A DNA stretch of 64,000 nt from NCBI RefSeq assembly GCF_014174155.1, contig NZ_JABEQM010000006.1:1-64000 (forward strand). Direction: 5' to 3'. Shown in pieces: positions 19,624 through 32,126 of this stretch. Made by a program: the position numbers and the translations under genes. The notes under the pieces were generated by a model. The model saw only the letters and a program-made list of their open reading frames with translations. It did no database searches and was not told the DNA's origin. The stretch comes from Gluconacetobacter tumulisoli (GTDB taxonomy: Bacteria; Pseudomonadota; Alphaproteobacteria; Acetobacterales; Acetobacteraceae). How positions within the stretch are numbered: position 1 is the stretch's first letter; every line of letters starts with the position of its first letter.

Positions 19624-19799
19624 GCATGTTGTTCATTGCCTGAACCAAAAGTCGCATAAGATATATTATGCCAACTCATATGGCCGAGCATGCGGGGGAG
19701 GACGGCATGTTTGGCAACGGTGGCGCAGCTGGGCTTCCGAATTCCGGTTTCTCGGTTACAAACGATCATTCCGGGAAATTGTCTGACGATCGGGAGCGC

Positions 19800-20660
19800 A
19801 TGACCATATCCACTGTGTTGGGCTTTGCCTTTTCGGGCATTGAGGCAATCCCCGTGCGGGTGGAAGTGCAACTGGCGTCGGGGCTGCCATCGTTCCTGAT
19901 CGTCGGCCTGGCGGACAAGGCCGTCGCCGAAGCGCGCGAACGCGTCCGCGCGGCGCTGTCCGCCATGGGACTGGCGTTGCCGCCCAAGCGAATCGTGGTC
20001 AATCTGGCCCCGGCCAACATCGTCAAGGAAGGCTCGCATTTCGACCTGCCGATCGCTCTGGCGCTGCTGACGGCGATGCAGGTGGTGCCGCCGGAGGATA
20101 GCGGACGTTTCGGGGCAATCGGCGAATTGTCGCTGGACGGGCGAATCAATGCGGTGCCCGGTGTCCTGCCGGCGGCCATCTGCGCGGTGGAGCAGTCCGT
20201 GGGGCTGGTTTGCGCCGCAGCCCAGGGGCGCGAGGCGCGATGGGCGGGTGACGGCCTGGATATCCTGGCCGCGGAATCCATTCTGGCTCTGGTCAACCAT
20301 TTCACCGGCGAGCAGGTTCTTCCGTCCGTGGAACTGCCCGAGCGTCTGCCCGACGCTTCGGAGGGTCCGCATCTGGACCTGGCCGACGTGCGCGGCATGG
20401 AAACCGCCAAGCGCGCGCTGGAAATCGTGGCGGCAGGAGGCCATTCCCTGCTGATGACCGGGCCACCGGGGGCAGGAAAATCGATGCTGGCCGCGCGCCT
20501 GCCCTCCCTGCTTCCGGACCTGACGACCGAGGAAATCCTGGAGATCAGCCGCATCCACAGTGTCGCCGGGCATCTGCCCATGGGCATCCCGATCTTTCGC
20601 CCCCCATTCCGCGACCCGCATCATTCGACCAGCCAGGTCGCACTTGTGGGTGGTGGCTGA
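19800..20660 (+). pseudogene. comM: ComM/YifB N-terminal part, interrupted by the Tn7-like transposon
   Basis: First part of the Mg-chelatase-like AAA+ protein ComM, a branch-migration helicase that helps integrate incoming single-stranded DNA during transformation. It contains the N-terminal fold (VLGFAFSGIEAIPVRVEVQLASGLPSFLIVGL, NLAPANIVKEGSHFDLPIALALL) and Walker A GPPGAGKS near residues 221-228. Homology stops after VALVGGG because the transposon begins at 20658, whose first three bases TGA form an in-frame stop. The rest of the gene resumes at 31479 with SRVRPGEVSLAHRG. Joining 20657 to 31479 restores the frame. The start has GGGAG 5 bases upstream. Confidence 0.95.
20653..20657. repeat. 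5-bp target site duplication, left copy (GTGGC)
   Basis: GTGGC directly precedes the left transposon end and is repeated directly after the right end at 31474-31478. A 5-bp duplication is the hallmark of Tn7-family insertion. Confidence 0.95.
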
Positions 20661-20681
20661 AAATTCTCACGGATAACTGCA
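20658..20681 (+). repeat. Left terminal inverted repeat of the Tn7-like element
   Basis: Begins TGAAAATTCTCAC and continues GGATAACTGCA. Against the right end (reverse complement) it differs only at positions 3, 7 and 13. The terminal triplet is TGA here, whereas the right end has the canonical TGT of Tn7-family ends. The inner CGGATAACTGCA is probably a TnsB-binding core. Confidence 0.93.
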
Positions 20682-20687
20682 AAGCAC

Positions 20688-20703
20688 AAAGGATATTTGC
20701 ACC
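20688..20703 (+). repeat. Second putative TnsB-binding repeat at the left end
   Basis: AAAGGATATTTGCACC resembles the terminal core GGATAACTGCA and lies 20 bases further in. A weaker third match (TTCTCATTCGAATAACGG) lies near 20804-20821. Tn7 ends carry several TnsB sites, so repetition is expected. Confidence 0.6.
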
Positions 20704-20881
20704 GAAATGACTCGGATCGGTAGCTCCGTCGCCGTATGCTGTTAGGGCTCGGTATGATTCCGGGCGACTTCATAGTAGTCTGACGGGCATCCTGTATTTT
20801 GATTTCTCATTCGAATAACGGACTGGCTAAACCGGCTGTCGGACCGACAACCAGCCCAGATTCGCGTGAGCGATCGGCTCC

Positions 20882-22657
20882 ATGACCGATTCAGGAAGAC
20901 TTCGATATGACGGTTTTCCGATGGATGGCCGTCACCGCTGGCTGAGGTGGATTGATGGGCTCGATCTCCACGGTCCGACCGGATCGCCGACGATCAAAGC
21001 ACATCTCGTCACCCTCCCCGACGCTCCGAATCCAGAAAACCTGCTGACGCTCGCCGTAGTCGCCGCCAGTGGCGCGCCTATTACACGGCATGAGGTGGTT
21101 GTGGGCTCCCTGCCCGCCCTTCGATTAGGAATGGTGTTTCTGGACGGCGAGCACGTAGGTGACCTCCGGATGGAACGGTTCGAACGTCGATCGCTGGGAC
21201 CGTCCCGCGACGCTGAACTTATCGCGGCCAATAGTCCGGTGGAAACGCCGGAATGGGCTTCGGTCCGCTGGACCGTTCTCCCTACTACGAGCTATCCGCT
21301 TGGAAATGTGAGAAACTCGTTTTGCCTGCGACTGGTCTATGGTGGCTGCGAGGTCATCATTCCGGCATCCGAGGTATTCCGGGTATTCTGCGCTCCGGAA
21401 AGGCTACTGGCCAATGTGATCCTGTCGGGGGAATGGAAGGATGTCGCCGGAAAGCTCCTGAACGAATCTTTCTGCGAAAAGACCCCCACCGAATGGCGGG
21501 TCGGTCTGCGCACAGGCCTAACGGGGGCATCGGCCGCGGTTCTGGCGGCCTATCGGTGGACGGACGCCGGAGCTGCGGTAAGAAACCAGCTCAGATCCGG
21601 CTTGCTTCAGAACGACCATCGCCTTCAGGCGATGATCCCGTATGGATTTGAAGGAATTGAACTTTCTGGCGAAGGTTTGAAGCTGAGTAACCGGGAAGGA
21701 ACGAGCCGGTTCCTCATGCTGAGAATCTCGGCGGTAAGGATAACCGGCCTTCATGAGATGAGAGTCCCGGTGCGTTTCCGGCTGGATAATTACACTGTCA
21801 AGCGATCATCCGATCGGGAGATGAAAGATAGGACTCCGTTCGTGCAGACCGCGCCCATCGTGGAGGAGTCGACGTCCGAGCCGATTGCGCTGTCCATCGC
21901 CGAACCGCCTTCCTCGGCGGCCATCGAGCGACAGTCGCCTTGCGAAGCCGCTGCCATAGAGGGACTTCCGGAGGTTTCTCGCTTGCCGCTGGATCCTCCG
22001 ATGCGGCCCGAAGCTGAGCGGCGAAGGCGTCTCACGGTGCTGGAACCCACGAACGTCGGCTCGACAGCAATGCATCAGCGTGGCCATCGGCCCGTGGGTT
22101 CTTTCGCGCATCTCCCCGAGGTGCGAGCATCCCTTGGCTTCGATGCGGTGGGGACCGTCCTGAACGAGCTTCTGCGCACGAGGGACATTACATCCTGGAT
22201 GCCAGTCATTCCTTTGGACCGGCCATGGAGGACGGTGTCTGGCCTCGAAGCATGGGATTTGCCGGCTGAGATTAAAGCGAAGCGGGCTGCGTTCTCTTTT
22301 CTGCGCGATGGAAATCGGCGTACCTGCTTGGTGATCGAGATCACGTTGGGCCAAGAAAAAGTCTTTTGGCTCGAACTCGAACGGCGACTTCCTGTTGGAA
22401 AGCATTCTGACGGATTCTGCTATCTTCTTTTGAAAGTTCGGCCTGATTACTTGGAAGACGCTATCGGTCGTCTCCTGATGTCAGCGGTGAAGGAGAAAGG
22501 GGTATGGAAGCTCGGGGATGTGGACAAAGGGACGTTTGCGGCGAAGGCGTTTCGGCATGCCTATTACGACACCGGTGCCATACGTATTGCTTCGGCAAGC
22601 CGTTCGATTCGCTCATTTATTTTGCAGAACAGATCCGGGCCTGTCGCATCTGAATAA
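20882..22657 (+). CDS. Transposon-encoded 591-residue protein, possibly TnsE-like
   Basis: Not securely identified. The product has three parts: a beta-rich N-terminal half (about 1-310), a low-complexity Glu/Ser/Pro linker (about 310-400, ending PEAERRRRLTVLEP), and a C-terminal domain (about 405-591) with LGFDAVGTVLNELLRTRD, then FSFLRDGNRRTCLVIEITLGQEKVFWLELERR. This layout and the pattern helix - strand - 'R.G....L.IE' recall Tn7 TnsE, the 538-residue selector that directs Tn7 to replicating or conjugating DNA; the comparison is from memory and similarity is weak. It is the first gene from the left end, points inward and has host-like base composition, unlike the AT-rich genes after it. 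Alternatively it is cargo. An ATG at 20922 is a second possible start. Confidence 0.5.
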   Translation: MTDSGRLRYDGFPMDGRHRWLRWIDGLDLHGPTGSPTIKAHLVTLPDAPNPENLLTLAVVAASGAPITRHEVVVGSLPALRLGMVFLDGEHVGDLRMERFERRSLGPSRDAELIAANSPVETPEWASVRWTVLPTTSYPLGNVRNSFCLRLVYGGCEVIIPASEVFRVFCAPERLLANVILSGEWKDVAGKLLNESFCEKTPTEWRVGLRTGLTGASAAVLAAYRWTDAGAAVRNQLRSGLLQNDHRLQAMIPYGFEGIELSGEGLKLSNREGTSRFLMLRISAVRITGLHEMRVPVRFRLDNYTVKRSSDREMKDRTPFVQTAPIVEESTSEPIALSIAEPPSSAAIERQSPCEAAAIEGLPEVSRLPLDPPMRPEAERRRRLTVLEPTNVGSTAMHQRGHRPVGSFAHLPEVRASLGFDAVGTVLNELLRTRDITSWMPVIPLDRPWRTVSGLEAWDLPAEIKAKRAAFSFLRDGNRRTCLVIEITLGQEKVFWLELERRLPVGKHSDGFCYLLLKVRPDYLEDAIGRLLMSAVKEKGVWKLGDVDKGTFAAKAFRHAYYDTGAIRIASASRSIRSFILQNRSGPVASE

Positions 22658-23084
22658 TGTTTTTTCAGGATCGTGCAATTATGGGCTTGGGTGAAATAAG
22701 CTTTCTTCATCTCCTTTTCTTGCTTCCAGAAACACGTCAAGCTCATCTTTGGCGTCTGGATCGAGATGGCCCTAACGGAGCACAGTCCCTTTTTCAGAAG
22801 GCATTCCCTTCCTCTCAACGTCACACATGGCGATCGACTTCAGTTAAGGTTTCGATGAAACGGACCACACAGCAACACTGCTGCGAAAATAGCACATCCT
22901 GAGGGTGGCAGTGTAACAGAGCGAATTCCCGACAAATTGCAGATCAACCACCACATCTAGTCGAAAATGAAAAAATAACCGCAAAATATTGAAAATTTGT
23001 GATTTGATGCAAAAATGCTATAATAATCAAAATTGTCGACTTGTGTTGCTCAAATGGCGCAATAAATTTGCGGTAGGTTTAGTG
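22658..23084. other. Cargo intergenic region; base composition changes from GC-rich to AT-rich
   Basis: These 427 bases hold no convincing gene: short frames exist on both strands but have no family pattern. The composition turns clearly AT-rich toward 23000. GTGCAATTAT at 22673-22682 is identical to the core of a right-end TnsB-like repeat (31404-31413), possibly by chance. A promoter-like sequence at 22997-23024 ends the region. Confidence 0.5.
22997..23024 (+). promoter_or_regulatory. Predicted sigma-70 promoter of the AT-rich cargo operon
   Basis: TTGTGA (22997-23002) and a perfect TATAAT (23019-23024) are separated by 16 bases. The next in-frame start is about 60 bases downstream at 23085. 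This placement argues that the longer reading frame opening at 22989 is not translated from its first ATG. Confidence 0.5.
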
Positions 23085-23825
23085 ATGACCGAATGGTTCC
23101 TGCAACATGTGAGGCTTACTGCTTTTTCACCGCTCCTCAAGGCGTTGAGAAGCGAGGGCTCTGAAGCCCTATTCGAAGGCCTAACTGGAATAGAGCCTGA
23201 ATTTGATGAAAAGCGCTTACAGGGAGGCTTTAGACGTCGAGCTGGTGTAGCTGGAATAACGCGGTTCGAATTGCTTGAGCAACTTCATCGGGTAGATTTG
23301 ACGATGCAAGGTCCAGTTGACCCTCTCGCGGCTGCGTTAGAGGGAAGAGTAAGCGAGGCGGCACTGGGAAATATTTCCAATATTCAGGAATTTGTAGACG
23401 CGGGATGGCCGCTCTTGGATCAATGCGCTGATATTACACGTTTAGCTTTGGGTGCATTGTTATTTATTCCATATTCATCGGCTGAAGACGCCTATGCCGA
23501 GTTATCACGTAAAATAGATTGGACTACTGCTCGATATCCCAAAACGAAGGATTTTATGCTTCAAATAAATTACCCCACTGTTGTAGAAATTCAGGGGGGG
23601 ATACCTTTAAATCGGATATTCTCTTGGGCCGTTGCGACTGCTCGTTTCGACCCTGCGCTTGTTATTGAACCGGCAACCTCAAATGAAGTATGGCTACAAC
23701 TGACGATTGACATCAATACTGATGTAAAAAACCAAGTCGTGCTGCGTCAAGATGATTTACAGGAAATAAAGAATCAATTTATACGCCAGGCGATTGGCAT
23801 GTCCAGAGGATTATTCCATGACTGA
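23085..23825 (+). CDS. Cargo protein A, unknown (possibly TIGR04255-like)
   Basis: A 246-residue protein with no domain I can name securely. It begins MTEWFLQHVRLTAFSPLL, has a central hydrophobic stretch DITRLALGALLFIP, and ends VWLQLTIDINTDVKNQVVLRQDDLQEIKNQFIRQAIGMSRGLF. The end (strand of alternating hydrophobics, then a helix ending near a Phe) is reminiscent of the sporadically distributed TIGR04255 family, but that is weak. Codons are much more AT-rich than host genes, a sign of recent transfer. The frame continues upstream to 22989, but the promoter lies inside that extension; a GTG immediately before the ATG is also possible. It overlaps the next gene by 8 bases. Confidence 0.55.
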   Translation: MTEWFLQHVRLTAFSPLLKALRSEGSEALFEGLTGIEPEFDEKRLQGGFRRRAGVAGITRFELLEQLHRVDLTMQGPVDPLAAALEGRVSEAALGNISNIQEFVDAGWPLLDQCADITRLALGALLFIPYSSAEDAYAELSRKIDWTTARYPKTKDFMLQINYPTVVEIQGGIPLNRIFSWAVATARFDPALVIEPATSNEVWLQLTIDINTDVKNQVVLRQDDLQEIKNQFIRQAIGMSRGLFHD

Positions 23826-24561
23826 TAATAAAAAATTGTCATGTGAAAATAAAAATCTATGGAAATTTTGCAGTGATAAAAAAATTTATGCTGTAGAGCG
23901 TCCCATGCTCAAGAGTTTTCGTGCAAATTCGTCAGCAATCGAGAATCGTCCGGAAATTTTTTATTCGACGGATTCTGTTGATTATAAAGAATATTCTTCA
24001 TTAAACGATTTATGTATGAATTTTTCAACAACAGAGAGTGGTGTAGAGAATAATACTGCAAAATTTAATTTGATGACAGCTAAAGATTCTACGTCAGCAT
24101 ATGTGTTTGACGTAGGGAGATCTTTAGATCGTCTAAGCAAAATGAATGCTGAGGTGACGAAGCGAATAGGGCTGTTACAGAGCTTTAAAGGAGATGAAGA
24201 AGCTGGTTATCCTCGGCCAAGTCGTGCCGTGGTGGACAAAACAGTAACGCTTGTTTGTCAACTCTATCAAGCAGATCCTGTGCTTGAACCTCCAATGATT
24301 TCCCCCTCACTCGATGGGGATGTCCTTATCAGTTGGCGCACAGCTGGCCGCTATTTCATTATATATGTAGACCAAGACGATAAATCCGATGTTACATTCA
24401 AGTTTAGGAATTCGGGGTCTGGAAATATTGATACTAAAAATAACGCAATTATCAGAGGATTGACCCAGATAGTATCCGCTTTCCATGGAAAGCAATACTC
24501 TCCAAGCTGTGACACTTCGCTCAAATCGGGTGAGTCCACGATGAAATTAATGTCGCTTTAA
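23818..24561 (+). CDS. Cargo protein B, unknown
   Basis: A 247-residue protein of unknown function. The first about 110 residues are polar with no pattern. The C-terminal half reads YPRPSRAVVDKTVTLVCQLYQ ... PPMISPSLDGDVLISWRTAGRYFIIYVDQ, a 'P.isPs.DG.v...W' motif seen in many uncharacterised small bacterial proteins, sometimes encoded beside TIGR04255 proteins (recollection, not a search). AGAGGA lies 7 bases before the ATG, and the ATG overlaps gene A by 8 bases, so A and B are translationally coupled. AT-rich codon use as in gene A. Confidence 0.55.
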   Translation: MTDNKKLSCENKNLWKFCSDKKIYAVERPMLKSFRANSSAIENRPEIFYSTDSVDYKEYSSLNDLCMNFSTTESGVENNTAKFNLMTAKDSTSAYVFDVGRSLDRLSKMNAEVTKRIGLLQSFKGDEEAGYPRPSRAVVDKTVTLVCQLYQADPVLEPPMISPSLDGDVLISWRTAGRYFIIYVDQDDKSDVTFKFRNSGSGNIDTKNNAIIRGLTQIVSAFHGKQYSPSCDTSLKSGESTMKLMSL

Positions 24562-24575
24562 TGGCTTAATGTACG

Positions 24576-25118
24576 ATGCCCAGCGTTTGGTCTTATGAAA
24601 AGCACGATTGTGATGAGAAAATCGGTCTTGTGGTATCCTACCCAAGGCATTTTCCACACGGTGTTTTTGATCCTTCTGCAACTCTAAAAAAAGACGATTT
24701 GGTAAAATGCAGTTGCTCAGTAGTGCGGTTATATTTTAGCAGCCCAAATGAAATAAATGATCAAGTAATATCGCCGCAGGCACTAAAAAATCCGAAATTT
24801 CGGCTTAGGGGAATTTTAGTTGCCTTTGAATCAGAAATAAAACAAGAAAAAAATGAAGAGGGTTGTCCGATATTCTTGGTGATACCGGATGGGATTCCAA
24901 ATTTTCGGAGTCATTCAGTTCTGGGATTTGACCCAGAACTAAATATTACCTCCAAGCAGAAGCAAAGAGAATATCGAGACATTCTCGTGAGTATTTTCTA
25001 CCCTCACGCAAACGAACAAGCGATTCCGGACGTGATTTTGTCCTGTTCGTCATTTTGTTCGGCCTCGTGTAGTCAACCATCAGAGCTTCGCCAAGACAGG
25101 CACGGAGGTATCATTTAA
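24576..25118 (+). CDS. Cargo protein C, unknown
   Basis: A 180-residue protein that I cannot assign. It has a beta-rich centre (KIGLVVSYPRHFPHGVFDP, VKCSCSVVRLYFSSPNEIND, FRLRGILVAFESEI, CPIFLVIPDGIPNFRSHSVLGFDPEL) and ends with a Cys/Ser-rich tail (SCSSFCSASCSQ). It follows gene B by 14 bases with no strong ribosome site, so it is probably read from the same message. It converges on tnsF, leaving 97 bases between the two stops. AT-rich like A and B. Confidence 0.5.
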   Translation: MPSVWSYEKHDCDEKIGLVVSYPRHFPHGVFDPSATLKKDDLVKCSCSVVRLYFSSPNEINDQVISPQALKNPKFRLRGILVAFESEIKQEKNEEGCPIFLVIPDGIPNFRSHSVLGFDPELNITSKQKQREYRDILVSIFYPHANEQAIPDVILSCSSFCSASCSQPSELRQDRHGGII

Positions 25119-25215
25119 TGCTTGGAAAGGCCGCCTATCCGAGACGCCGTTGCTCAGACTGAACATGTTACCTTCGCGGTCCTGATAATCGGCGCCCGCC
25201 AGGCATCTGGGGGGA

Positions 25216-26616
25216 TCAAGCTCGGTAGCTGGCCTTTTTGATATTCTTGATGCGAGTTCCACGAAGAAAATAACGCGCGCTATCGACGGAGTACGGGGCG
25301 ATGCCTGCGCGGCCGGCAAAAGGCATGTCAGCCGATCTGTCGGCGAACCGGAGAAAAGCGTTCGAAAGGATTGGACAGAGATCCACGATCGTATCGTCAA
25401 TCCGTAGTTCGACGCGGTCCACTTTTGGGACCACATCGTTCCTGCGCATGGCCAGTACCTTTTCGAGCCGGACGCCGTGGATTGTGGTGATGGCCCATGC
25501 GAGGAGTGCGCGGCCTTTTCGCGGGTCGTCGCAAGCGGTCAATTGGTCGATAAACGTTTTCGCTTTTCGCAGCGTGGCGCACTCGCGCACGCGGACCGTC
25601 TTTCCGGCGCGGAACCGAACTTCGAGTTCCGGGCCGCCGGCTTCCTTGAGCCAAGACAAGAAGCAGTACACGTCGTTGGTCCTGCCGGGCCGGTGCCGTA
25701 GCCAGCTCTTCACATGACGCTGGGTCAAATCCGATGCATGCTCGATCCCGGCGGCTTCCAGTAGACCCCGCGCGGCGCTGACGTAGGACTTCACTGTGCG
25801 ATCGGAGAGAGGCCTCGCTGACTGTCTAAGGGTCGCGGAGAACGCGACCAGATCTTCGTGCCAGCCTGCGTCAATCGATTCGTTCAACGCCGCCAAGGTG
25901 ACTCTGCGTGCGGAATGCACGGCACCGGCCCGGGCGTCCCATGAGAGTCCAAGCCGCTTTACCAGGAATGTGACCAGCCTTTCCTGCCGGCGCAGCCCTT
26001 CGCGGCCGTGGAGATCGATCAGCGTCGTTTGGTCGATCTCCGTTGGGCGGGACAGAACACTATCCAGCGACGCGAGGAAGGTGGCGCTGGCAGCCACGCG
26101 TCGCGTCATATCGCCGGGCATGCGTCCATAGTCGAGCGACTCATGGAAAGCGATGAGGAGTTCCTTCGCCCAGGACTGCCGGAGATCTTCCGCCGCTGCG
26201 TGGACCGCCCGCATCGTGCGGCGGCGCAGCCCGCATGACGCGCAAGGTGTGAGACCGCCACCAGGAATCGTACGACCGCAGATTGGACAGCTATGGGTGA
26301 CGGGCACGGCCCCTGCGCAGTCACGGCAGAGGGGATATCCGTCATCATTCCTCCGTGAAATCGGCCGGTGCCGACGGCAGACGCTGCATGTCGCATGGGT
26401 GTTACGGCGAGCGCATGGCTCGCAGATGAGACCACCGTGTGCCTCCGATCGGACGGGACGCCTCGTCGAGCGGGTGCAGGCCACACAGATCACAGGAGGG
26501 CGAGTTGCGTTGCCGCATGTCGGACAGACCGGCTTGCCGTTAACGATCCGGCCCGCCTTGGTGAACGACTTGATGCAGCGCGAGCAGATCCTGCGGGTGA
26601 CGTGCGGATCAGGCAT
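25216..26616 (-). CDS. tnsF: TnsF-type target selector (zinc ribbons plus inactive tyrosine-recombinase domain)
   Basis: About 466 residues. The N-terminal region (about residues 11-128) holds eight CxxC pairs (CSRC, CPTC, CVAC, CEPC, CSVC, CRDC, CPIC, CASC), i.e. about four zinc ribbons. The rest resembles a tyrosine recombinase: a core-binding SAM-like part (DRTVKSYVSAARGLLEAAGIEHASDLTQRHVKSWL) and a catalytic-fold start (ALLAWAITTIHGVRLEKVLAMRRNDV, retaining the first Arg). The HxxR motif and the nucleophilic Tyr are not found; the protein ends at KKASYRA. This is the TnsF design reported for Tn6022-like elements, which recognise comM, and this copy is in comM. The start at 26616 overlaps tniQ by 8 bases; an earlier ATG at 26664 is possible. 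Confidence 0.85.
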   Translation of the reverse strand: MPDPHVTRRICSRCIKSFTKAGRIVNGKPVCPTCGNATRPPVICVACTRSTRRPVRSEAHGGLICEPCARRNTHATCSVCRRHRPISRRNDDGYPLCRDCAGAVPVTHSCPICGRTIPGGGLTPCASCGLRRRTMRAVHAAAEDLRQSWAKELLIAFHESLDYGRMPGDMTRRVAASATFLASLDSVLSRPTEIDQTTLIDLHGREGLRRQERLVTFLVKRLGLSWDARAGAVHSARRVTLAALNESIDAGWHEDLVAFSATLRQSARPLSDRTVKSYVSAARGLLEAAGIEHASDLTQRHVKSWLRHRPGRTNDVYCFLSWLKEAGGPELEVRFRAGKTVRVRECATLRKAKTFIDQLTACDDPRKGRALLAWAITTIHGVRLEKVLAMRRNDVVPKVDRVELRIDDTIVDLCPILSNAFLRFADRSADMPFAGRAGIAPYSVDSARYFLRGTRIKNIKKASYRA

Positions 26617-27757
26617 CGGTATGGACGCCGATAGCGTGCAAGATTCGGCATGCACGGAGCGCACTGTAGGCGGTCCGGTCCGTCCGGCGAAGACGGTTGA
26701 TGACCGGTTCGTTCAGGATTGGTTTCCACTGCTTCCGGGCCGCCTTGCGCCGTGCTGGTAATTGGGCGACCTGCCGCGCGAGGGTTTGGGACATGGGACA
26801 CCGCGCAAAGGTTCGATGGCTAGCGCCGATGGCCTCCGCGCCGAGGAAAAAATTGCGGGGCCAGTTCTCCATCCAGGCTGCCACCGTTTCCAGCCATGGC
26901 GTCCGGACAGCAAACCGCGCGTGCTCGAAACGCCGACGGTCGGCATCATCGTATGTCGTGGTTGGCGCGAGACCGAGCGCCTCACGGAGCGTAGAATATG
27001 CTGACCACGGTGCTGATGCGGCGATGAGGCCCCGGACTGTTAACGGGAGTTCGGCCCGTCCCGTTTCCAGCCATGCGAAAGCTGTCGGCCTCCGATCCGC
27101 TTGGGCCAGAAGATCAAGCAGTTGATTCTGCAAGCGTCGCGCGGACTGCGGGACGGGTCCCCCCCGAATCTCCCGCCCCCCCTTGGTAAGGTCCCTGCCG
27201 CATTGGTGGCAATCGATCAAGCGAATGGACATGGAGCGGTGCGGGATCACGGCGGCATCACAGTGCGGGCAGGCGTCCCGAAGCGGCCGACCATGACCCG
27301 AGCACCAAGTGGAGAATCCAAGTCGCCATTCCCGTCGGAAATACGGGATGCCGTCGGCGAGGCAGTTGGGGCAATACTGAAGTGCATGGCGGGTTCGCGT
27401 CCGATGGTAGATACCGGCGGACAGAATGAGCCGGCTGTCGGCGGCACTGACCGCGATGTTCGTCCCGAGGACCTCCCGCCAGCCCGTTAGAGTTGCGCCA
27501 ATCACGGTTTCATAGGGAACACTAAGACGTTCGGCGATGTCGTCCAGCCAGGTTCTTGCTTCTGGGGTCCGGTTCATCCGGAGAAGGGTTTCTGGATCAC
27601 GATCGAAATCGCGGTTCCAGACGGGATCGTGGTCCCAGATGAGGTTCAGAAAGCGATAAGGCGACAAGCCGTGCGCGAATGCGTTTCGGGTAAGGCAGGA
27701 GGATAGCAGTTCGCCGGGCAACGGTGGTAGGCGGCGCGTCCAGCTTTTGTTCGTCAC
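26609..27757 (-). CDS. tniQ: TniQ/TnsD family protein
   Basis: A 382-residue TniQ-domain protein that bridges target recognition and TnsC. The signature LPGELLSSCLTRNA is at residues 13-26, followed by the zinc-binding segment YCPNCLADGIPYFRREWRLGFSTWCSGHGRPLRDACPHC and a further CHQCG. Its length is between minimal TniQ and full TnsD, and the C-terminal part is helical and basic. Probably works with TnsF for comM targeting. It overlaps tnsC by 4 bases and tnsF by 8. Confidence 0.9.
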   Translation of the reverse strand: MTNKSWTRRLPPLPGELLSSCLTRNAFAHGLSPYRFLNLIWDHDPVWNRDFDRDPETLLRMNRTPEARTWLDDIAERLSVPYETVIGATLTGWREVLGTNIAVSAADSRLILSAGIYHRTRTRHALQYCPNCLADGIPYFRREWRLGFSTWCSGHGRPLRDACPHCDAAVIPHRSMSIRLIDCHQCGRDLTKGGREIRGGPVPQSARRLQNQLLDLLAQADRRPTAFAWLETGRAELPLTVRGLIAASAPWSAYSTLREALGLAPTTTYDDADRRRFEHARFAVRTPWLETVAAWMENWPRNFFLGAEAIGASHRTFARCPMSQTLARQVAQLPARRKAARKQWKPILNEPVINRLRRTDRTAYSALRACRILHAIGVHTDA

Positions 27758-28683
27758 AGGCTGCGCGCCCTTTCGTTGCGCGCATCGTCGGTTTCGACGC
27801 GGACGGATTGCAACATGTCCAGATCAATGCGATCGCGTCCGTTCCGAATAGCTAGAACCGCCGCCTCCTTGACCAGGCGTGCGATGCTGCCGATGCTGCC
27901 GTCGGTTCGCAAGCTGATGAGAGTCGCGGCCTGCTGGTCCGCCAAGCCTGAGGGGGCTGGGAGTGGTAAGACCTTCTCGAGGCTGCGTAGCAGGCGCAGG
28001 AATTCGGCATTAAGGGTCCATTTCGGTAATTCGAAGCGGTCGAGGCGGCGCTTGAGCTGTTCGTCGCTAAGAACGGCGGCTTGCGCGTCTTGGGTGCCGG
28101 CAAGGATCAGGTGCATCCTGAAGCGATTCGTCAGATCCTTGAGTTTGCCCAGGATGAGGCGTTGGTTGACGCCGGAGCCGGATAGGAGGTTGTTGATCTC
28201 GTCGCTGATAATGATCCTCGGTTCGAGCGTGCCCAGAACGGCGTAGGCCTGACGCAGCAGCAGCGCGGCTGGGTCAGTGGCTCGGTGGCAGGTCTGACAA
28301 GCTTGCAGCAGTTCCGACCACAGGTCCTTTTCCGTGGCTCCGGCCGGCATGGCCATTCGCACAACATCAACAACGAGGTCGCCGTTTTGCGTGGTTCGCG
28401 GCTGGAACTGTGACGCAAACCTTTCAAGAATAGTTGTTTTGCCGTTCCCAGGGCGGCCGAGAAGCAGCATGGCGGGAGATGTCGTAGTGCGAGGCCTGCG
28501 CACCAGATCGGCCATGGCGGCGAGCGCGGCGTTCGCTGCCGAGTAGCCGATCCAGCGATCCTCGCGGGCGAACCAGACGCGCTCTTCCACCGTCAGGTCC
28601 AGCACGTTTCGCGTGCTCGGCGCCAGATGGTGCAGTTCCTTATCCTGATCAGCAGACATTGGTTTTCCACAAGCGTTGTTCAT
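27754..28683 (-). CDS. tnsC: TnsC AAA+ transposition regulator
   Basis: A 309-residue AAA+ ATPase that forms filaments on target DNA and activates the transposase. Walker A is GRPGNGKT at residues 76-83 and Walker B is IIISDE ending at residues 161-162; a downstream segment ILAGTQDAQ fits sensor 1. A second ATG 8 codons in (28659) is an alternative start. It follows tnsB after about 57 bases and overlaps tniQ by 4. Confidence 0.92.
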   Translation of the reverse strand: MNNACGKPMSADQDKELHHLAPSTRNVLDLTVEERVWFAREDRWIGYSAANAALAAMADLVRRPRTTTSPAMLLLGRPGNGKTTILERFASQFQPRTTQNGDLVVDVVRMAMPAGATEKDLWSELLQACQTCHRATDPAALLLRQAYAVLGTLEPRIIISDEINNLLSGSGVNQRLILGKLKDLTNRFRMHLILAGTQDAQAAVLSDEQLKRRLDRFELPKWTLNAEFLRLLRSLEKVLPLPAPSGLADQQAATLISLRTDGSIGSIARLVKEAAVLAIRNGRDRIDLDMLQSVRVETDDARNERARSL

Positions 28684-28740
28684 GCTATGTGCCTTTGCAT
28701 GCTAACAGTCGCCCCTTGGCTAGCGAAACAACCACTTCTT

Positions 28741-30633
28741 TCAGGCGTCGATGTCGTCAAACGGCTCGACAGGGATGTCGAACAGGCTCGGGACTTTCGT
28801 TGTGGGCGCTGGCGCGTCCGACTTTCTGGCATCATTGCCGGCCGGGAGTCTGACTGACGGTTTCCTGGCCGAGGCGGCGTGTCTGCGAGTATCTGCGGCG
28901 CGCTGGTGGACCTTCCGTGCGGCCTTGGTCTTTATGGCAGATTCTTCCGCGCGCTTGCGGAGGCGATCGTAAGTGCTGAATAGGAGCGGTTCGTCCACGG
29001 CCTTGGCTCCCTCGGATCGAAGTTGCCGCTGCACCGCTTTCCATTCCCAGCGGCTGATGGGCGGCCTGGTTTTGTCGAGGGTCGAAATGGGCAGATATTC
29101 TCTTCTGTCCGGGTCAAGAAACCAGACCCGAGAGATGTCGCGGGGGTCTACCCGAATCAGGAATTTCATGAGCTGTTTGGGCTGGCCCGGATCGGTCCTG
29201 CCGATCCAGTGCCTTAGTTCGTTCTCATAGTAGTGGAGGTGGTCGATGATGATGCCTCTGCGTCCCATGGTCCTCCATTCGAACGGCAGGAAGTCGAGCT
29301 GCAATCGTTGCGGGTCGCTCGGCGGTCTGGGCAGCCCGATGCGCTCGATGCCCTGTCGCCATTTCTCGATCGGAGGCATTCCGTCGAGCCGGGAGTGCGG
29401 CTGCTGGTGATAGCGGTTGACGACGTGATCGACGAGCCAGGACTCGAATTCGGCGAGCGTCATGACGGCCTTCGCGTCTGAGTCGTAGCCGGTCCGTTCT
29501 TTCGGGTTGGAGAAGGTGGCGCCCGGCAGTTCGCGGATGGCCTCGCCCAAGGTTCGCATGAGCCGTTCGATATGACCACCGTAACGCGGGGTTTTGACCC
29601 GGCGGAACTGGATGTCGATGCCGTACTCGGCGCAGGCAGTCTTCAGGACTTCGCCCCTGAATTCCTTGGCGTTGTCCATGTGGACGATGTGAGGCTTTCC
29701 GTATGCCGGCCAGTCTCCGGGAACCCCCTGTTCCCGGAGATATTCATCCTTGGGCGTCATGGCCTGGGCAATGCACCGTCCCGCCGCGAACGCGCTCGGA
29801 GCTTCCATGGAGACGACTAATCCGACGATCATGCGAGTATGGACGTCAATGGCGACGGTGATCCACGGCCTGTTCAGAGGTAGACGCAACGCCTCGTCGA
29901 CGATCATGACATCGGCCTCGGAATGATCGATCTGCACGATGGACAGCGGGGCGACGGCGCCAGGAAGGCTACCGATCATCGGCCGGAACGCATCCGCCTC
30001 GTCCGATCGCCCCTGGCTTTGAAGGAGTTCCGCGCGGGGAATGGTTTTTACCCTGCGACGAATGGTGTTGGCATGAGGCGGCTCGATCCCGGCTTTCTGG
30101 CAGGCGTCCTCGACGGCCTCGATGACGTGGCTCACCCGTTTTCTTTGGGGCACCTTGAGGTTCGTTTCGATGGCGTGATCAATGATGGCGTCTAGCCTGG
30201 GATCGAGCGTCTTCTGCCCTGGCGCCGGGCCGCGCGGAGTAGGAATGAGCGAGGAGAGTTGCGGCGCGTCGTGATAGGCGGACAGCCAGTTGTAGATCGT
30301 GCGCACGCTTCTGCCGGCCGAGGCGGCCACGGCCTCGACCTGTGATCGCGGCCTCACCACGGCGCCGACAAGGGGCCTGATGATTTCCAGACGCTGCTGG
30401 GCAGTCGCGTAGGCGGGGGCGTCCGCCACGAGATCATGGGCGTTCGGCATGACGGCTGCCGTTTCGGTGGCCGGGGAGAGCGTCGCGATACGCAGGGTCT
30501 CGTATCGGCCATCGTCCGCTTTCTGGGCAAGAACGGTCTGCTCGGAGGTCTGCGCTTCGATCCGGTATCGGGCCTGCCCGACCTGGACCATCGCTCCTTT
30601 CGATATGTCGAGAAACCTGGGGTTCGGTGTCAT
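28741..30633 (-). CDS. tnsB: TnsB DDE transposase
   Basis: A 630-residue Mu/TnsB-type transposase that binds the end repeats and cuts and joins the 3' ends. The N-terminal helix-turn-helix region includes SVRTIYNWLSAY. The RNase H-fold catalytic triad is visible as Asp236 (VQIDHSEADV), Asp320 (VHMDNAKEF) and Glu356 (GGHIERLMRTLG). A beta-barrel-like region follows, then a basic C-terminal tail (after about 540) ending in VPSLFDIPVEPFDDIDA, probably the TnsC-contacting tail. It overlaps tnsA by 4 bases. Length and motifs look intact. Confidence 0.95.
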   Translation of the reverse strand: MTPNPRFLDISKGAMVQVGQARYRIEAQTSEQTVLAQKADDGRYETLRIATLSPATETAAVMPNAHDLVADAPAYATAQQRLEIIRPLVGAVVRPRSQVEAVAASAGRSVRTIYNWLSAYHDAPQLSSLIPTPRGPAPGQKTLDPRLDAIIDHAIETNLKVPQRKRVSHVIEAVEDACQKAGIEPPHANTIRRRVKTIPRAELLQSQGRSDEADAFRPMIGSLPGAVAPLSIVQIDHSEADVMIVDEALRLPLNRPWITVAIDVHTRMIVGLVVSMEAPSAFAAGRCIAQAMTPKDEYLREQGVPGDWPAYGKPHIVHMDNAKEFRGEVLKTACAEYGIDIQFRRVKTPRYGGHIERLMRTLGEAIRELPGATFSNPKERTGYDSDAKAVMTLAEFESWLVDHVVNRYHQQPHSRLDGMPPIEKWRQGIERIGLPRPPSDPQRLQLDFLPFEWRTMGRRGIIIDHLHYYENELRHWIGRTDPGQPKQLMKFLIRVDPRDISRVWFLDPDRREYLPISTLDKTRPPISRWEWKAVQRQLRSEGAKAVDEPLLFSTYDRLRKRAEESAIKTKAARKVHQRAADTRRHAASARKPSVRLPAGNDARKSDAPAPTTKVPSLFDIPVEPFDDIDA

Positions 30634-31391
30634 CGGTCGGTTTCCGTTTGCATGAGGTGCTTGCGTGAATATGGATTGCAGCGCCGCCAGTCGGAATCCC
30701 GGTCAATCCAGAGGGGCGTGGTCCTGATGTCGATCTGGCCCTCATCGAGCCCCGCCATAATCCGGCGTGTGGCGACCAGCTTCCACATGTGAGGAATAGC
30801 TTGGATCCGATTTGACTCGGTCATGAACGCGGCCGCAAGCAGTCTCTGCGGCGTCGAAGGGCCGATGCCGGCGAGCGTGTGGACCAGGTGCTCCTCCATG
30901 GAATCGTCGTCCGGCAGAGTTCTGAATGGAGCCAGAAAATGATAGGCGTCGAGCGGCCAGCGATGGAGCTGGCGCTCCGTTAGGAGCTCGAAGGCCAGGC
31001 CGTTCTCGTGGGCAAAAGTGCGTCCCGCGTGCAGGCGAGGCTTGAGCGTGCGCCAGTCCCGTCGGAGGTCGGCCATGGGCTTGATCTCGACCACGAAGCC
31101 GCGCGGGCGGGAGCCTTTGTGGATTGTGAGAAAATCAGGCGTGTAGCGGGTCTGCCTGCCATTGGCTCCGACGCAGGGGATGGTGAAGGGCTGGGCGCGG
31201 ATGGCGGCGAGCGTTGGGTCGAACTGCATAATGAGGAGAAAGTCGCGCTCGAGATGGGACTCATGATCTACAGACTGGCCGAGAAAGGACATGCGTCCGC
31301 GATTTCCGCGATGCCCGTAGCTAACCGTGCGCGCCGGTTTGGCTGGAACCAGTGCAAGCAATCTTTGTAATTCGTCCATTGGCGCAGTCAT
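30630..31391 (-). CDS. tnsA: TnsA endonuclease subunit
   Basis: A 253-residue restriction-endonuclease-like protein that cuts the 5' ends so the element leaves by cut-and-paste. The acidic site is visible as Glu44/Glu48 (HESHLERDFLL), Asp86 (YTPDFLTI) and Glu102-x-Lys104 (VVEIKP). The C-terminal helical part would contact TnsB/TnsC. Its start is 82 bases from the right end and overlaps a TnsB-like repeat (31381-31397), suggesting that transposase binding could repress the operon. First gene of tnsA-B-C-tniQ-tnsF. Confidence 0.93.
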   Translation of the reverse strand: MTAPMDELQRLLALVPAKPARTVSYGHRGNRGRMSFLGQSVDHESHLERDFLLIMQFDPTLAAIRAQPFTIPCVGANGRQTRYTPDFLTIHKGSRPRGFVVEIKPMADLRRDWRTLKPRLHAGRTFAHENGLAFELLTERQLHRWPLDAYHFLAPFRTLPDDDSMEEHLVHTLAGIGPSTPQRLLAAAFMTESNRIQAIPHMWKLVATRRIMAGLDEGQIDIRTTPLWIDRDSDWRRCNPYSRKHLMQTETDR

Positions 31392-31397
31392 CCATGG
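31381..31397 (-). repeat. Third putative TnsB-binding repeat at the right end
   Basis: On the minus strand the sequence reads CCATGGATGACTGCGCC, matching the core GGATAACTGCA at most positions. It overlaps the tnsA start codon. Confidence 0.6.
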
Positions 31398-31402
31398 TTT
31401 CT

Positions 31403-31419
31403 AGTGCAATTATCCGTAG
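31403..31419 (-). repeat. Second putative TnsB-binding repeat at the right end
   Basis: On the minus strand it reads CTACGGATAATTGCACT, close to the terminal core CATGGATAACTGCA. Spacing to the terminal site is about 45 bases and to the third site about 22. Confidence 0.7.
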
Positions 31420-31449
31420 TTGGAACAGGGCCGCAAAATCGACCTACAG

Positions 31450-31473
31450 TGCAGTTATCCATGAGAGTTTACA
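31450..31473 (-). repeat. Right terminal inverted repeat of the Tn7-like element
   Basis: Read inward on the minus strand it begins TGTAAACTCTCAT and continues GGATAACTGCA, matching the left end at 21 of 24 positions. It carries the canonical TGT...ACA terminus of Tn7-family elements. Confidence 0.95.
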
Positions 31474-31478
31474 GTGGC
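31474..31478. repeat. 5-bp target site duplication, right copy (GTGGC)
   Basis: Identical to 20653-20657. Deleting the element together with this copy rejoins comM in frame at the GGG-SRVRPGE junction. Confidence 0.95.
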
Positions 31479-32126
31479 AGCCGGGTCCGGCCGGGCGAGG
31501 TCAGCCTGGCCCATCGCGGCGTTCTGTTTCTGGACGAACTGCCCGAATTTTCGCGCCCTGCGCTCGAGGCCTTGCGGCAGCCCATCGAAACCGGGACGAT
31601 CACTATCGCACGCGCATCCGCCCATGTGACCTACCCTGCCCGCTTCCAGTTGATTGCCGCGATGAATCCCTGCCGGTGCGGCTACCTCGGCGATGCCGCG
31701 CAGGAATGCCGGAAGGCCCCGCGCTGCGGCGAGGATTACGTGTCGCGGATTTCCGGCCCGATGCTGGACCGGATGGACGTGGCCGTGCACGTCGAACCCG
31801 TGCCGCCGTCGCAACTGGCCGGCCTGCCGACCGGCGAGACCAGCGCGGTGGTGGCGGCACGGGTTGCGGCAGCCCGTGCACGGCAGAAAGCACGCCAGAA
31901 CGGCCTGTACAATGCCGAGGTCGCGCCGGACCTGTTTCCCACCGCCGCCGCCGCGCGCGATTACGCCGTGCTGGCGGCCGAGCGGCTGCATCTGTCCGCG
32001 CGCGGTTTCACGCGGCTGCTGCGGGTCGCCCGGACGATCGCCGACCTGGCAGGCGACGAGGAAATCGCGCAGCCCCATGTGGCCGAGGCCGTGGGGTACC
32101 GGCTGCGACGGCCGAACCGGCGATAG
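31474..32126 (+). pseudogene. comM: ComM/YifB C-terminal part, separated by the transposon
   Basis: The second part of ComM. It starts at SRVRPGEVSLAHRG, carries Walker B VLFLDELPEF, then SRPALEALRQPIETG, TYPARFQLIAAMNPC and a zinc-type cluster CRCGYLGDAAQECRKAPRCGEDY, RISGPMLDRMD (Arg finger region), and the C-terminal helical domain ending VAEAVGYRLRRP. With the upstream part it would make a normal-length protein of about 500 residues. Walker A and B now lie on separate fragments, so ATPase function is lost. An ATG at 31461 inside the transposon end reads in frame into this fragment but has no ribosome site. Confidence 0.95.

Follow-up and report, generated by a model that had tools for sequence, protein, structure and literature searches.

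A three-gene cargo operon of a Tn6022-like Tn7 element in Gluconacetobacter tumulisoli, a possible divergent member of a modular family built around TIGR04255

The window examined here is a 64,000-nucleotide stretch of Gluconacetobacter tumulisoli DNA (contig NZ_JABEQM010000006.1, positions 1 to 64,000), in which a Tn6022-like Tn7 element carries three adjacent cargo genes that we call A, B and C. We put at about even the chance that A-B-C is a divergent form of a three-gene module that is widespread, belongs to the mobile abortive-infection or toxin-antitoxin type and combines a constant first gene with swappable effectors. Conservation of the B-C pair, interchange of the first gene and mobile surroundings were all observed directly with the tools used. 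By its middle and third genes the window holds a type-1 module, the commonest of four operon types described below, and A is a positional stand-in only for the usual first protein, a member of family TIGR04255. The three genes and the promoter-like site before them are as follows.

22997..23024, plus strand: promoter-like site TTGTGA-16-TATAAT; sites of this kind occur in the region at chance number
23085..23825, plus strand: gene A, an open reading frame (ORF) of 246 amino acids (aa), first gene of the module; relatives at loci L018/L029 and L020/L030
23818..24561, plus strand: gene B, 247 aa, type-1 middle protein with a P..P..dG.l..W domain at about residues 126-191
24576..25118, plus strand: gene C, 180 aa, type-1 third protein and putative effector, from a family with a predicted ADP-ribosyltransferase (ART) fold

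An earlier, sequence-only reading described three adjacent plus-strand genes that overlap or nearly abut, are far more AT-rich than host and transposition genes, and have no securely nameable domain. Our results agree on each point. All three ORFs are intact, A and B overlap by 8 bases, and 14 bases separate B from C. The G+C contents of A, B and C are 0.459, 0.388 and 0.414, and those of third codon positions (GC3) are 0.393, 0.335 and 0.365, compared with GC3 values of 0.68-0.76 in the five transposition genes and 0.755 in the 5' part of comM. Neither A nor C had a match at E<=1 in Pfam, NCBIfam, PHROGs or PADLOC. B had sub-threshold matches only, the best being to PDC-M32A in PADLOC (E 0.0034, residues 128-200) and the others lying at 0.018-0.24. 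Sequence searches of solved structures gave nothing convincing for the window proteins (best E 0.11 for A, 0.97 for C, no match for B) and reached E 0.014 and 0.78 when queried with one and with 44 TIGR04255 proteins, respectively. The motif noted earlier in B is present as PMISPSLDGDVLISW at residues 159-173 and is common to B proteins, with the columns of P159, G167 and W173 holding the same residue in 29, 32 and 30 of 32 aligned sequences. The proposal that the operon has its own promoter is not supported: the site exists at its position, but the region holds 6 promoter-like sites and shuffled sequence 5.9 +/- 2.1, so the site alone is no evidence.

Type-1 operons were defined in a survey of TIGR04255. 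At class level 12 of 142 genomes have this family, and at phylum level 29 of 398 do. Forty-four distinct places were found, and 43 were fetched and read. Judged by eye, 37 of these 43 loci continue with a gene pair that falls into one of four types (L003 is counted among them, with its second gene alone recognised); L004, L013, L036, L046, L050 and L051 are unassigned. Type 1 (22 loci) combines a protein of 160-260 aa, which has W-D-G and P..G.l..W motifs, with a following protein of 130-185 aa that has N-x-A-H near its end. Type 2 (3 loci) has a protein of about 215 aa and then one of about 225 aa with GxGLTCATF, which we take to resemble a cysteine peptidase. Type 3 (7 loci) has a protein bearing a helix-turn-helix and then, where complete, one of about 275 aa with S/T-x-x-C, and type 4 (5 loci) has a short protein and then one of about 200 aa with LSN-[ST]-CD. 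Profile comparison with hhalign found the type-1 C protein unrelated to the other C types (p 0.47-0.75), which fits the expectation for swapped effectors, and a common core in the third proteins of types 3 and 4 (p 0.006).

Counting loci found outside this survey as well, type-2 operons are L002, L032 and L033, with TIGR04255 first, and L030, with an A-like gene first. Type-3 operons include L034, L037, L041, L043, L057 and L062-L065, and those of type 4 are L035, L038, L045, L049 and L058. At L036:2234-2858, TIGR04255 is followed by a 95-aa gene and a third gene, presumably PemK/MazF-like, perhaps a fifth pairing. At L046:597-2590 another long ORF lies directly upstream of the TIGR04255 gene.

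The window resembles the operons of this family (NCBIfam; listed as sporadTIGR04255) in its three co-directional genes and in B and C, which match the type-1 pair profiles; it differs in that A does not match TIGR04255. The earlier hint that B-type proteins accompany TIGR04255 is right for the family. The window's own genome has no TIGR04255 match, and INPHARED phage records gave none to the single TIGR04255 protein used as query. Our literature search, which covered 5.39 million open-access articles, found no paper on TIGR04255.

Evidence for placing the window in this family comes from the B-C pair. We built hidden Markov models of B and C from 19 type-1 operons, excluding the window, and searched 594 six-frame ORFs from the window and L029/L030. 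Window B was the best window match to the B profile (E 4.7e-5; next unrelated ORF 0.86), and window C was the best match overall to the C profile (E 5.8e-6; next unrelated 0.87). The same profiles gave E 6.4e-11 for B and 0.021 for C in Mesorhizobium. Leave-one-out profiles were then applied to 62 loci (the 43 TIGR04255 loci, L060, five plasmid loci, 11 viral loci, L029 and L030). At E<1e-3, 32 loci held both B and C, 27 held neither and 3 held a single gene (B only at L011 and L029, C only at L047). Searching viral contigs with B as the sole query gave six loci, all six on contigs known to hold TIGR04255 plus B. Given this co-occurrence and the viral scan, the B-C pair is a real unit.

Whether A, B and C travel together as a set, the question left by the sequence-only reading, is answered in favour of a recurring unit. 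The conserved B-C pair stands behind TIGR04255 in numerous genomes and viral contigs, and the whole A-B-C operon recurs in Mesorhizobium sp. B2-4-15 (L018/L029); relatives of A are rare, and elsewhere TIGR04255 takes the first place. Used as queries, the window proteins A, B and C had no plasmid match, and IMG/VR held no relative of A or B and none for an alignment of A. B was found in none of 60 genomes beyond its own, including 0 of 13 other genomes of the genus.

A search of 398 genomes with A gave nine foreign places at E<=0.05, of which L022, L024, L025 and L026 were left unopened. L019, L021 and L023 look like chance matches within unrelated genes, and we rejected them as relatives. The protein at L018 in Mesorhizobium sp. 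B2-4-15 matches A at 30% over 217 aa (E 1.5e-8) and heads a type-1 operon, and that at L020 in Pseudomonas sp. ML96 matches over 102 residues (E 4.8e-4) and heads a type-2 operon. We judge both to be real because each heads a three-gene operon of a described kind. An alignment of A searched against two orders (249 and 244 genomes) returned known copies only, and a profile search of genome contigs with A found the same two organisms only. The surroundings of L020/L030 appear prophage-like by eye; at L030:9929-20711 the A-like type-2 operon has, again judged by eye, umuD/umuC-like genes and phage tail-like genes as neighbours. Since A-like proteins head both type 1 (window, L029) and type 2 (L030), the A-like family takes the place of TIGR04255 in two operon types. 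The other type-2 operons seen (L002, L032, L033) have TIGR04255 as their first gene in three of three cases.

The suggestion that A ends in a TIGR04255-like pattern did not survive sequence-profile searching, which gave no match at E<=1. Profile-profile comparison gave p=0.047, with the two aligned at the expected C-terminal strand and helix, and window A was absent among the matches listed (E up to 31) for a profile of type-1 TIGR04255 proteins. Remote homology of A to TIGR04255 is plausible and unproven. An AlphaFold model of A from three sequences reached a predicted local distance difference test score (pLDDT) of 60.4 and a predicted template-modelling score (pTM) of 0.67, with the order beta-alpha-beta4-alpha, then beta-alpha-beta3-alpha. 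Its PDB matches included S-adenosylmethionine decarboxylase (AdoMetDC; Z 8.0) and guanidino kinases (Z about 5.3-6.8). Because the model is weak and Z values of 5-8 are common, we ruled out identifying A as AdoMetDC or arginine kinase. Its best match among viral structures was an unnamed protein (E 3.8e-6, TM 0.41), and no fold could be named. We also considered a SecB-like A; SecB was absent among the 50 entries listed for this low-confidence model.

For the third gene, modelling of a relative of window C suggests an ART fold. C of L071, modelled from an alignment that also contained nine further C proteins, window C among them, gave pLDDT 90.8 and pTM 0.84, and we compared this model with 997 PDB chains using VIA-align. 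Fourteen of the first 15 PDB entries are Tpt1/KptA proteins (three of the 14 presumably so, partly by entry series), and the other is 2o0q. The best match was 1wfx (Z 7.6, root-mean-square deviation 3.2, 98 residues aligned), titled APE0204, which we take to be Tpt1. Further down were pierisin (Z 4.7), AvrPphF (4.6), bacterial ART toxins (4.5-3.1), EcPltA (4.3), DarT (4.2) and ParT (3.4). All of these matches, 2o0q included, presumably have the ART fold; the first unrelated fold stood at rank 40 (Z 3.0). A Foldseek search of viral structures ranked an unnamed protein first (E 1.9e-3) and a tRNA 2'-phosphotransferase second (E 0.22). Three positions are well kept among 28 aligned C proteins: 26 have Arg at the first, 24 have Ser at the second and 27 have His at the third, and these are candidate active-site-type residues. 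The ART fold of type-1 C, predicted from L071 and not from window C itself, is suggestive and not proven.

Related operons lie in prophages, satellite-like elements and plasmids, some of them beside known defence genes. Eleven viral contigs with TIGR04255 were fetched, and type 1 occurs in 10 of them; at L070 the operon appears by eye between terminase-like and portal-like genes. Seven plasmid records contain TIGR04255, and five were opened (all except H4 and H6). Four of these carry type 3. In L062 a P4-family primase precedes the operon and xseA/guaBA adjoin it; in L063 an integrase and a DUF927 gene come before it and type I restriction genes follow, as in a satellite-like element; in L064 it comes after vapBC; and in L065 it is flanked by transposases. 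The fifth carries type 1 after mobF (L066).

We also compared neighbouring genes for a subset of the 43 TIGR04255 loci, namely 16 selected because their contigs are long; L002, L004 and L058 have long contigs too and were not included. Neighbour ORFs (130) were set against 138 control ORFs at least 30 kb away on the same contigs, all of 120-900 aa and at most nine per locus. At E<=1e-10, 182 PADLOC models matched among neighbours and 10 among controls, an inflated contrast that is unusable as a statistic because one retron reverse transcriptase and one Septu-like ATPase each match dozens of models. When ten neighbour ORFs from three loci were scanned singly, six matched. The type-3 operon L057 (L099:5448-14162) has a complete retron I-A (reverse transcriptase, ATPase, HNH) and, by eye, an integrase-like gene alongside, and the type-3 operon L037 (L090) has AbiEi, AbiEii and viperin. 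Specificity_I and PDC-S13 matches were found among the pooled neighbour ORFs, without assignment to a locus. Phage integrases made up 3 of the 130 neighbours, and none was seen in the control families listed (25 of 131).

The element that carries A-B-C is complete, and its features are as follows.

19668..20657, plus strand: 5' part of comM, ORF
20653..20657: left target-site duplication GTGGC, 5 bp
20658..31473: Tn6022-like Tn7 element, 10,816 bp, complete, splitting comM
20658..20682: left end repeat, with a TGCAGTTATCC site inside (minus strand, from 20681)
20882..22657, plus strand: other cargo gene, 591 aa, no family; not AT-rich
25216..26664, minus strand: probable TnsF, the comM target selector, 482 aa, with a zinc-finger N-terminus and a degenerate tyrosine recombinase; overlaps tniQ
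26609..27757, minus strand: TniQ (Pfam TniQ, 7.6e-21)
27754..28683, minus strand: TnsC/TniB ATPase (Pfam TniB, 1.5e-48)
28741..30633, minus strand: TnsB transposase (Mu-transpos_C, 1.4e-9; rve, 1.5e-6)
30630..31391, minus strand: TnsA endonuclease (Tn7_TnsA-like_N, 7.9e-14)
31449..31473: right end repeat, with a TGCAGTTATCC site at 31450; a TGCAATTATCC site lies at 31405
31474..31478: right target-site duplication GTGGC, 5 bp
31479..32126, plus strand: 3' part of comM, ORF

The earlier description of the carrier as Tn7-like is borne out by TnsA, TnsB, TnsC and TniQ, the insertion into comM, the GTGGC duplication and the end repeats, which are identical at 21 of 25 bases, with TGCARTTATCC sites at both ends. 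Across the empty site the comM frame is continuous (545 aa from the ORF start used). The 482-aa protein has sub-threshold matches to zf-C3HC4_3 (0.0033) and Phage_int_SAM_4 (0.0044). Its size and position fit TnsF, which selects comM in the Tn6022 group (PMC10293859), and it is probably TnsF on the strength of this fit to the published description. The window element shares with Tn6022-like transposons its TnsA, TnsB, TnsC, TniQ, probable TnsF, comM site and 5-bp duplication, a likeness of gene set and site, and it differs in cargo. Tn7-like elements carry defence and toxin-antitoxin genes (PMC8649781). Residues 12-254 of the 591-aa cargo protein are 26% identical (41% coverage) to hypothetical proteins of two Xanthomonas campestris plasmids. 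We set this gene aside because its codon use (GC3 0.622) is unlike that of A-B-C and only this match was found.

How might such a module work? A constant first protein, usually TIGR04255 and here its stand-in A, would pair with one of several B/C pairs. In type 1, C would be an ART-fold effector and B its dedicated partner. A, with B, would keep C inactive and sense infection; upon phage infection C would be released and would modify a target of the cell or the phage, and growth or phage production would halt, as in abortive infection of a toxin-antitoxin-like kind. The unrelated C types suggest a common sensor or holder in A and an exchangeable effector pair in B and C.

Comparison with known systems gives partial likenesses. 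Tpt1/KptA tRNA 2'-phosphotransferases are the best fold match of L071 C, with most entries matched in the C-terminal part only; C is shorter and shows no sequence similarity to them in the PDB search. DarT and ParT, of DarTG and ParST, are weaker fold matches than Tpt1. DarG is a macrodomain protein, and neither A nor B has a macro domain match at E<=1. The C-terminal domain of PDC-M32A, from the PADLOC candidate system PDC-M32, is common to window B, Mesorhizobium B (5.6e-5) and L012 B (1.2e-8), with only 71-108 of its 375 positions matched, and no PDC-M32B match appeared among the partner genes scanned. When 72 A, B and C proteins of these operons were scanned with PADLOC 2023, the matches at E<=0.01 were confined to PDC-M32A (best 4.4e-6) and to four that each involved a single member (4e-4 to 4e-3). 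The one open-access paper found on PDC-M32 lists it as hypothetical (PMC12429752). Among systems whose logic has been worked out, the nearest is CmdTAC, a tripartite toxin-antitoxin-chaperone system in which the chaperone senses a phage capsid protein, the antitoxin is lost and the ART toxin modifies mRNA (PMC11618068). Like CmdTAC, A-B-C comprises three genes, one predicted ART-fold effector and two partners. However, the gene order differs, the triad of CmdT is H-Y-[E,D,Q] (PMC11618068), and the C family keeps Arg, Ser and His, without a conserved Tyr in columns conserved in half or more of the 28 proteins. Given the different triad and the lack of any recognised SecB-like protein, we do not consider A-B-C a CmdTAC member; it would work similarly without being one. 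Rst_3HP of P2 phages was also considered; the available part of PMC9122126 names no family that would allow comparison.

Several results weigh against an abortive-infection or toxin-antitoxin module. Its restrainer, sensor and target, and the defence role of A-B-C, are steps that we infer. Neighbourhoods could be tied gene by gene to defence systems at only two of the 16 loci, both of them type 3 and not type 1. A had no NCBIfam match to TIGR04255 at E<=1, let alone a score over the 30-bit cut-off, and convincing relatives of A are very rare (two in 398 genomes). For C, one of five AlphaFold models was confident, with pLDDT of 63.4-42.0 in the other four. No fold match of L071 C exceeded Z 7.6 or reached 8, and Foldseek against the PDB found nothing at E<=0.001, with PilZ and eIF4E ranking first. 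Finally, window C has Leu18 at the position of the family Arg, while Phe31, Ser48 and His113 are kept. The activity of window C may therefore be altered, either lost or dependent on a different residue. The Arg is retained in the type-1 operon of Mesorhizobium sp. B2-4-15.

The loss of this arginine bears directly on the possibility that the window module is decaying and functionless, with A drifted beyond recognition, which we regard as very unlikely. The weak B and C profile scores and the lack of B in the rest of the genus point the same way as Leu18. Against decay, three intact reading frames overlap or nearly abut, Phe31, Ser48 and His113 of C and P159, G167 and W173 of B are retained, and C of L053 likewise lacks the Arg in an operon whose three genes are all open. 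Alternatively, the operon could be a tripartite toxin-antitoxin addiction module that stabilises its carrier, in which C would poison cells that lose the element and A and B would neutralise it, with no anti-phage role. This account is unlikely in our estimation. It shares its anatomy, including a C with a predicted ART fold, with the abortive-infection reading, and it is consistent with related operons by VapBC (L064), after mobF (L066) and in viral contigs, and with a window copy on a transposon. Type-3 relatives before type I restriction genes (L063) and beside a retron keep company typical of defence, and a transposon in comM should be stable anyway; neither point is decisive.

A role outside defence is less probable again. 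The cargo could encode an ART-like or ligand-binding regulator of host metabolism, or a counter-defence function for the element, as phages and plasmids also carry counter-defence ART enzymes such as AcrIF11 (PMC12421852). The component activities are predicted and none is proven, and the A model is weakly like AdoMetDC and guanidino kinases (best Z 8.0), all of which leaves room for such a role. Nevertheless, unrelated B/C pairs behind one first gene fit a sensor-effector arrangement better than a single metabolic one, and one swapped pair carries what we take to be a cysteine-peptidase-like motif.

Returning to the modular abortive-infection or toxin-antitoxin reading, we propose tentatively, at somewhat less than an even chance, that a large modular immune family uses TIGR04255-like proteins as its constant sensor or chaperone. 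Its members would trade effector pairs with an ART fold (type 1), a cysteine-peptidase-like protein (type 2) or an S-x-x-C core (types 3 and 4), and the constant protein would itself be replaceable, as in the window. The module appears undescribed in the open-access literature, and there is a fair chance that it represents a new modular family. If this proposal is true, an NCBI family named by a number would become the hallmark of a modular conflict system on prophages, satellite-like elements, plasmids and Tn7-like elements, with an ART-fold protein as a defined effector candidate. Copies could then be located in large numbers through a single marker gene, and the exchange of B/C pairs would bring the sensor-effector question within direct experimental reach.

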